A stretch of DNA of 64,000 nt, from NCBI GenBank assembly GCA_033032865.1, contig JAWHQI010000262.1:1240001-1304000 (forward strand). Direction: 5' to 3'. The DNA comes from Dactylorhiza incarnata (lineage: Eukaryota; Streptophyta; Magnoliopsida; Asparagales; Orchidaceae). The notes under the pieces are model-generated. The model had not been told where the DNA came from. It made no database searches and saw only the letters and a list, made by a program, of their open reading frames with translations. The position numbers and the translations under genes are program-made. The stretch's first letter is position 1. Every line of letters begins with the position of its first letter. Shown in pieces: positions 35,282-36,420 of this stretch.

Positions 35282-36358
35282 GTGCATGAGAGTAGTGGGT
35301 CTGCTGAGGCCCCTACAGCTCCGTCTGCTGAGTTGGTTCGGCTAGTTACTGAAGGCTTTCTCGCTGCATTGAATGGCCAGCCTGAAAGGCAAGGCCAACC
35401 GCTAGTGCAAGAGGTGGCCCCTGAGCCACTAAGAGTGGAGCAAGTCCCAGTGAGGCGTGCTCCTGAGCAACAACTGAAGCACTTTCTGGGATTTCGACCT
35501 CCTCCGTTTACCGGGGTTGAATCCCCAGCTGAGGCCGAAGACTGGTTGTCGCATGTGAAGCGAATTCTGACAGCGACACAGTCGGAGGAAGCGCAGAAGG
35601 TGACCTTTGCTTCTTTCTTGCTAGAAAAGGAAGCTAGGCGGTGGTGGGATGAGGTTGAGAGGCGCCAGTTCGCGGGAAGGCGACTGGTTGATGTGACGAT
35701 GGAAGAGTTCTCGAGAATCTTCCTCGCAAGGTATGTGCCTCAGTCGCAGCAGATCGCGATGGAGAACCAGTTCTTGGCTCTAACACAGGGTGGTAGACTG
35801 GTTGATGACTACTTGCATGAGTTCACCCGCCTCGGGCGCTATGCTGGGACTTCTTTCGATGATGAGGATAGAAGGGTGAACAGGTTTTATGGAGGTTTGC
35901 GTACTGAGTTGCGGCATCTTCTGACAGGGCCGTTGACGCAGGGTTTCACGACCCTCGTTGGTTCAATCCGAGCCCTTGAGCAGGACATGCTCAGGGAAAA
36001 GGGCAAGGCGGTTGTGGTCGAGGCAGTGCCGGAGGGCAAAGCACTGAGTGCGACGAAGTTGCGGAGGTTGAGTCGCTGGAAGAAGGCTCGAGTATCTGGG
36101 CCAGCTCCCTCTGCTTCGGGCGCGTCATCTGGACGTGGCCCTCTTATTTGTTTCACTTGTGGCAAGCCTGGCCATTTCTCTCGGGATTGCCGCAGTGGGC
36201 TTCCAAGGCCAGAGAAGAAGGCGGGGCCAGCTTATTCTGAGAAGGGGAAGGCAGCTGAGTCCACTGCTTCCCGTATGGCTCCCCCGCAGCCCAGAGTTTT
36301 TAGTCTCGATCAGCAGGAGGCTATCAAAGCCAAGGACGTCGTGACAGGTACAATTTAA
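35282..36358 (+). CDS. TEK1 Gag (open reading frame intact)
   Basis: 358-residue frame with ATG at 35282 and TAA at 36356. Seen: the retrotransposon Gag domain (FLGFRPPPFTGVESP, then AEDWLSHVKRIL, ARRWWDEV and the block ending FYGGLRTELRHLL) and a CCHC zinc knuckle CFTCGKPGHFSRDC (36149-36190). Gag would assemble the particle and bind genomic RNA. The usual Tekay/Del layout is one long gag-pol frame. Here the frame stops three codons after a perfect GT donor (36348), and pol sits in another frame behind an AG acceptor (36420). Unspliced RNA would give this Gag alone; spliced RNA would give Gag-Pol. The start is the first ATG in the frame; an earlier non-ATG start cannot be excluded. Confidence 0.88.
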   Translation: MHESSGSAEAPTAPSAELVRLVTEGFLAALNGQPERQGQPLVQEVAPEPLRVEQVPVRRAPEQQLKHFLGFRPPPFTGVESPAEAEDWLSHVKRILTATQSEEAQKVTFASFLLEKEARRWWDEVERRQFAGRRLVDVTMEEFSRIFLARYVPQSQQIAMENQFLALTQGGRLVDDYLHEFTRLGRYAGTSFDDEDRRVNRFYGGLRTELRHLLTGPLTQGFTTLVGSIRALEQDMLREKGKAVVVEAVPEGKALSATKLRRLSRWKKARVSGPAPSASGASSGRGPLICFTCGKPGHFSRDCRSGLPRPEKKAGPAYSEKGKAAESTASRMAPPQPRVFSLDQQEAIKAKDVVTGTI

Positions 36359-36420
36359 GATACAGTCTTTACTGTTTATACACCTATTTTAATTTTCATG
36401 CTAACTTGTTGGCGGCGTAG
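36348..36420 (+). other. Candidate intron between TEK1 gag and pol (73 nt)
   Basis: Exon ...GTGACAG, donor GTACAATTTAAG; branch-like CTAAC at 36401-36405; acceptor GGCGGCGTAG; exon GCTATGTAAATG. Removing it joins VVT to GYVNVLGVPARALFDTGASH, the normal Gag-to-protease transition of this lineage, in one frame. The 73 nt are AT-rich between GC-rich exons and contain in-frame stops. Confidence 0.75.

Follow-up and report, generated by a model that had tools for sequence, protein, structure and literature searches.

The coding region of a Ty3/gypsy (chromovirus-like) retrotransposon in the orchid Dactylorhiza incarnata is interrupted, between gag and the protease, by a segment of 73 bp that is likely to be a spliceosomal intron. 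The element occupies positions 32897-42008, and the segment positions 36348..36420, of the window, i.e., the whole stretch of 64,000 nucleotides (nt) analyzed here (assembly GCA_033032865.1, contig JAWHQI010000262.1, positions 1,240,001 to 1,304,000 of the forward strand). The proposed model is that, when the intron is retained, a TAA codon following VVTG-T-I ends translation and yields Gag only, this unspliced RNA being both the Gag mRNA and the packaged genome. Removal of the intron would rebuild a Gly codon at the junction (G|GC) and create a single Gag-Pol frame, the spliced RNA acting as Gag-Pol mRNA, so that the degree of incomplete splicing would set the Gag:Gag-Pol ratio. This statement as a whole, a plant-type intron together with a dual-role RNA and the setting of a ratio, is considered reasonably probable on the evidence of the sequence; we infer that the RNA is spliced, that splicing is partial, that the intron is retained and that control of the Gag:Gag-Pol ratio is its selected role. 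If true, the 73-nt gag-protease intron would give a chromovirus a compact switch that lends itself to testing; it would also be an intron gain whose presumed uninterrupted state is still visible in relatives, and, through its survival, a report on which RNA is packaged. To our knowledge, the source of excess Gag in one-frame plant Ty3/gypsy elements is largely open.

The anatomy of the segment agrees with the original prediction, which had described a GT donor and an AG end enclosing 73 bp, a CTAAC word 15-20 nt before the AG, an AT-rich body and a Gag stop three codons into the intron. The GT lies at 36348-36349 and the AG at 36419-36420 (CAG|GTACAA ... CGTAG|GC, phase 1), the second A of CTAAC (36401-36405) is 16 nt ahead of the last intron base, and the Gag TAA at 36356-36358 comes three codons after the one that reads G|GT. 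The guanine-cytosine (GC) content of the segment is 32.9%, with 41% T, against 57% GC in the coding stretch before it and 55% in that after it; this is the lowest value of the coding region (35240-39790, about 4.5 kb), in which all equally GC-poor 73-nt stretches start at 36322-36366. The hallmarks of plant spliceosomal introns are therefore present, namely GT..AG ends, a branch word and a U-rich body with a GC content below that of the exons. Among the 26 GT..AG segments of 73 nt in the element interior, this is the only one that combines low GC (28/73 or less) with a branch-like word located 12-40 nt from the 3' end. The donor has a predicted U1 pairing of -7.1 kcal/mol, the best among the GTs at 36150-36358, and a pairing that strong is reached by 9 of the 341 interior GTs, the segment donor included. 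These features bear on the possibility that the segment is a lesion, that is, 73 bp that were inserted or duplicated in a nonfunctional copy and resemble an intron by chance, in a family with one gag-pol frame. As AGG is repeated at the segment ends, the excision can be drawn in four equivalent ways, and the chance that one of them is GT..AG is about 2% with the local base composition; the low-GC, T-rich body with its branch word also argues against a chance resemblance.

The reading frames set gag and pol apart, gag ending at 36358 and pol opening at 36405, and the single-frame form is not found in this element. That Gag stops and pol sits in another frame would be compatible with translational recoding (frameshift, readthrough or bypass) or with an internal start of Pol. 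Stops occur within the segment in the gag frame (36356), in the pol frame (36390 and 36402) and in the third frame (36418), and with all three frames closed it is impossible to pass from gag to pol by one frameshift or readthrough. Readthrough in the gag frame would reach its next stop at 36614 without ever entering pol, and the first ATG of the pol frame (36573) is downstream of the DTGA active-site codons at 36462, which disfavors an internal start that yields the protease. No unusual RNA structure that would hint at recoding stands out at the junction (z 0.85). On account of the closed frames and the lack of an outstanding structure, recoding has been rejected as barely credible, and splicing is, as far as the sequence can tell, the only simple route to a whole Gag-Pol.

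Joining of the putative exons restores one frame, as had been predicted: the end of exon 1 (GTG ACA G) and the start of exon 2 (GC TAT GTA), when read by eye, give VVT-G-YVNVLGVPARALFDTGAS. The position of the rebuilt Gly can be compared with that in related proteins, for which 132 sequences were considered, i.e., 12 Gag matches and the best 120 of 7984 pol matches. After dropping 35 that had no D.G[AS]-type motif, 97 were left, and in 82 of these the conserved Gly is separated from the catalytic Asp of the protease by 14 residues; some of the remaining 15 start inside the region or were matched elsewhere. When donors at 36150-36358 were combined with acceptors at 36403-36700, at least 60 nt apart, 58 frame-compatible GT..AG pairs were obtained, and one of the 58 restores the 14-residue spacing. 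When the pol piece of the window is aligned with 18 chosen relatives, the column of the rebuilt Gly is invariant (19/19 rows).

The Gag side provides support of another kind. The best Gag match (among 12) is P0001, the product of KSP39_PZI007980 in the orchid Platanthera zijinensis, with 52% identity and 88% query coverage, a Gag-only protein of 343 residues. It ends in ...QQEAIKQVDVVTGTV, and the Gag of the window in ...QQEAIKAKDVVTGTI; DVVTGTV aligns end to end with DVVTGTI, and the stop codon is at the same position. The other 11 matches show 24-28% identity and their Pfam annotation includes a protease domain, which indicates that gag and protease are joined in those distant relatives. It is unlikely that two separate accidents produced the same stop codon in two elements that are only 52% identical, and this argues against a lesion, so that the shared Gag end gives the intron strong but single support. 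The intron that had been predicted between gag and pol is upheld by its anatomy, by the closed frames and by this common Gag end in an orchid relative, while splicing itself is presumed from them.

The original prediction had also proposed that unspliced RNA is the template of retrotransposition, and the architecture of the copy supports this, provided that the intron predates the insertion. All the features of the element are on the plus strand. A 5-bp target-site duplication, CAAAC, flanks it on both sides (32892..32896 and 42009-42013). Comparison of the long terminal repeats (LTRs) delimits a 5' LTR of 2103 bp at 32897..34999 (TGTAAG...GTTACA, with TG...CA ends) and a 3' LTR of 2120 bp at 39889..42008, and the pair is 95.4% identical across 2100 aligned bases (Kimura two-parameter distance 0.047), corresponding to an age of about 1.8 million years if 1.3e-8 substitutions per site are assumed each year. 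The 5' LTR is followed at 35003..35011 by the word TGGTATCAG, which resembles a primer-binding site of the initiator tRNA-Met type, the bases after it departing from the consensus. The paired LTRs and the 5-bp duplication, together with this primer-site-like word, mark the copy as a product of reverse transcription. If the insertion is younger than the intron, the 73 nt were still in the template, and their survival between LTRs would mean that unspliced RNA was packaged. The intron could also be real and constitutively spliced, or untuned; the inserted DNA would then be neutral and persist since it is spliced out, with the excess of Gag arising elsewhere. The same intron anatomy fits this alternative, but an intron that is always spliced out ahead of packaging would be lost with every round of transposition, whereas the reverse-transcribed copy keeps it, and the Gag stop is common to a relative with only 52% identity; it is accordingly regarded as unlikely.

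The domain content was assigned with Pfam, the interior being searched as six separate pieces, and shows the Ty3/gypsy order of gag, protease, reverse transcriptase (RT), RNase H and integrase. The gag open frame (35240..36358; Pfam and open reading frames) holds a Retrotrans_gag domain and a CCHC zinc knuckle, and ends in VVTGTI-TAA within the intron. The pol exon (36421..37238) carries the aspartic protease, with DTGA at 36462, and the start of the RT, its frame being open from 36405 up to a stop at 37236-37238. The rest of pol lies in pieces at 37239..39793, with RT, RNase H, the zinc-binding domain of the integrase, a weak integrase core, an SH3/Tf2-1 domain and a weak chromodomain. The integrase core (rve) scores 26.6 bits, under its cut-off of 32.6, while the zinc-binding domain is above its own; the match to Chromo (PF00385) is weak (E 0.049, 14 bits against a cut-off of 25.1) and correctly positioned after the integrase. 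Assignment to Tekay/Del is plausible. Tekay elements mostly have one gag-pol frame; the usual Tekay/Del form shares its domain content with the element studied here, the chromodomain being a tentative match, and relatives taken as Tekay-like differ from this element in that their gag-protease junction is uninterrupted wherever both of its sides are visible.

This copy is dead, with a gag that lacks its ATG and a broken pol. In the gag frame no ATG precedes 35699 (35240-35699), a point within the capsid region, so gag must have lost its start, begin at a codon other than AUG or have its start on the far side of a rearrangement upstream. In-frame stops interrupt pol at 37236-37238, 37482-37484 and 38466-38468, and the frame changes within about 39050-39220. 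The leader contains a further intron-like stretch at 35068-35239, with a GTG|GTGAGC donor (U1 -8.1), CTAAC at 35215-35219 and TTGTGTAG|GG ending at 35239, the exact point where the gag frame opens. There is no ATG upstream of its donor, and a leader intron does not therefore explain the missing gag start. In 2005, the authors describing Diaspora stated that an intron upstream of gag had not been reported until then (PMC1142308).

The relationships on the pol side were studied in a tree with 109 rows of protease-RT sequence, consisting of those 104 of the 132 proteins that cover most of the piece, four loci and the window. The window groups with P0018, P0032 and P0105 (support 99/93), none of which carries a clade name, and the joining of P0018 and the window calls for caution, as both branches are long. 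The C-terminus of Gag in P0018 is 57% identical to that of the window over 51 columns with 8 gaps, and P0032 starts past the junction and is silent on the intron. The 18 uninterrupted plant relatives, taken as Tekay-like, have 46-49% identity to the protease-RT piece, and gag and protease are uninterrupted in the relatives in which both sides of the junction are visible.

Several observations weigh against a functional intron. P0018, the nearest pol-side relative among the matches listed, reads through the junction unbroken, as do P0105, of the same group, and P0030, adjacent to it; P0018 comes from a 1161-bp JGI (Joint Genome Institute) contig of unspecified kind, and its open frame would not count if it derives from RNA. 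The shared Gag stop is seen in one relative, P0001, a protein-level record with a damaged zinc knuckle, and no further Gag-only relative was among the 5 matches of another Gag search, which used an alignment of two rows; each Gag search scored about 8000 candidates of limited length, and other Gag-only relatives may exist. The rebuilt Gly is followed by a Tyr that occurs at that place in none of the 82 relatives, while the T-I of the retained form looks normal. The donor is ordinary by consensus count (6/9, a value reached by 48 of the 341 interior GTs) and deviates from the consensus at +4 to +6, and G is abundant in the dozen nt ahead of the acceptor, where no clear pyrimidine tract is seen. 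Such weak splice sites would fit inefficient splicing or a retained intron, could also mean no splicing at all, and are no proof of it. With gag and pol damaged elsewhere in the copy, a lesion at 36348 is conceivable, and the relatives that read through in or near the clade of the window, as well as the pair of Gag codons within the segment that still resemble the uninterrupted form, agree with it. Set against the GT..AG placement, the T-rich body and the Platanthera Gag ending at the same codon, a lesion is judged quite unlikely.

Returning to the intron, readthrough in P0018 makes it look derived, with the uninterrupted state ancestral. The last two Gag codons within it, T-I, align with the uninterrupted relatives, and the rebuilt G-Y-V would take the place of their G-T-I. 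Comparison with these relatives points to 36356..36428 as the probable inserted DNA, and the likely origin is an insertion after the VVTGT[I/V] codons, downstream of a ready-made GGTAC donor. In this scheme, a U-rich insertion of about 73 nt would have brought the branch site and the acceptor, landing just past the conserved VVTGT[I/V] codons, and the donor would have pre-existed in the conserved Gly-Thr codons (ACA GGT AC). A broader and more tentative proposal, which we hold at somewhat less than an even chance, is that a chromovirus lineage of monocots (orchids and related plants) fixed a gag-protease intron through a U-rich cassette inserted after VVTGT, which created both the donor and the Gag stop, the element staying alive only by incomplete splicing. 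Incomplete splicing would be essential because one RNA is the Gag mRNA and the genome when unspliced, and the Gag-Pol mRNA when spliced.

Other sequence collections were searched for the junction. Matching loci were found in prokaryote genome contigs (34, of which 19 were examined over 120 residues), and part of them are probably plant contamination. Six of the 19 (L001, L002, L004, L005, L006 and L009) have the CCHC knuckle and the D.G motif in one open frame, nine have the D.G motif without the knuckle (seven with upstream stops, eight from one distant Trichormus bin) and four gave nothing; these loci show the uninterrupted state, and no intron was seen among them. Three protein scans of viral contigs returned 8, 152 and 119 pattern-matching stretches, with no confirmed relatives, and a 20-nt word of the intron had no match in them. 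Within the 64-kb window, sequence comparison revealed no second copy of the gag-pol region.

Known systems offer partial parallels. Most groups of elements have a single open reading frame (PMC6317226), and a 2025 review describes plant LTR elements as generally intronless and singles out Ogre and EVADE as exceptions (PMC12786077). In Ogre (Ty3/gypsy, Tat lineage), a region that the element keeps is spliced from only a subset of the transcripts, which permits the whole polyprotein, and the gap lies between GAG-PROT and RT (PMC6317226), in line with the Ogre intron near protease and RT that the original prediction cited as established; a figure legend for soybean GmOgre draws a gag-pol intron (PMC3305785). 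The direction of the logic is the same, with unspliced RNA giving the short product (PMC6317226), although splicing is inferred in our element, where the 73 bp lie between gag and protease, upstream of DTGA. Moreover, the lineages differ, and the additional RNase H that Ogre has between RNase H and integrase was not found here by Pfam, a single RNase H region (two overlapping models) being followed by a piece that opens with the integrase zinc-binding domain. Ogre is thus the closest known logic, in another position and another lineage. BARE1 (Ty1/copia) has a 104-nt, U-rich alternative intron directly after gag, similar in its shortness, composition and place, but there splicing produces the Gag-only RNA and the unspliced RNA holds gag-pol in one frame (PMC3735527). 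EVADE and similar Copia shGAG RNAs likewise separate Gag and Gag-Pol mRNAs by splicing, with the difference that the Gag-only form is the spliced RNA and is prematurely polyadenylated (PMC8892269, PMC12786077). Sunflower Tyran and Varan also produce spliced short RNAs (PMC7730604). Bianca (Ty1/copia) resembles the present element in having two frames, separated by a gap of 172 bp on average, and differs in being a Copia element for which the accessible part of the source reports no splicing (PMC6317226). No description of a gag-protease intron in a chromovirus was found in the open literature, seen in part and with subscription papers mostly outside its scope, which is weak evidence of absence.

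The window contains further repetitive DNA. Two similar Copia-like stretches in the same orientation, at 609-3309 and 56638-59338, with weak Gag matches at about 1809 and 57838, show gag, knuckle, protease and integrase by eye. At 17631-20635 lies the pol of another Ty3/gypsy-like element, more distantly related, with 25-39% identity to pieces of the main one. Tandem arrays of palindromic 29/59-bp units (CTCCCACTCGCC...GGCGAGTGGGAG) occur at 44346-44609 and 52181-52312, about 8 kb apart, and a third array at 47610-48171 is made of about 7 copies of an 81-bp unit with 95% matches. Finally, direct repeat blocks at 27925-28392 and 43616-44247, which are 15.7-15.9 kb apart, flank the main element, and they could be the LTRs of an older element that it entered.
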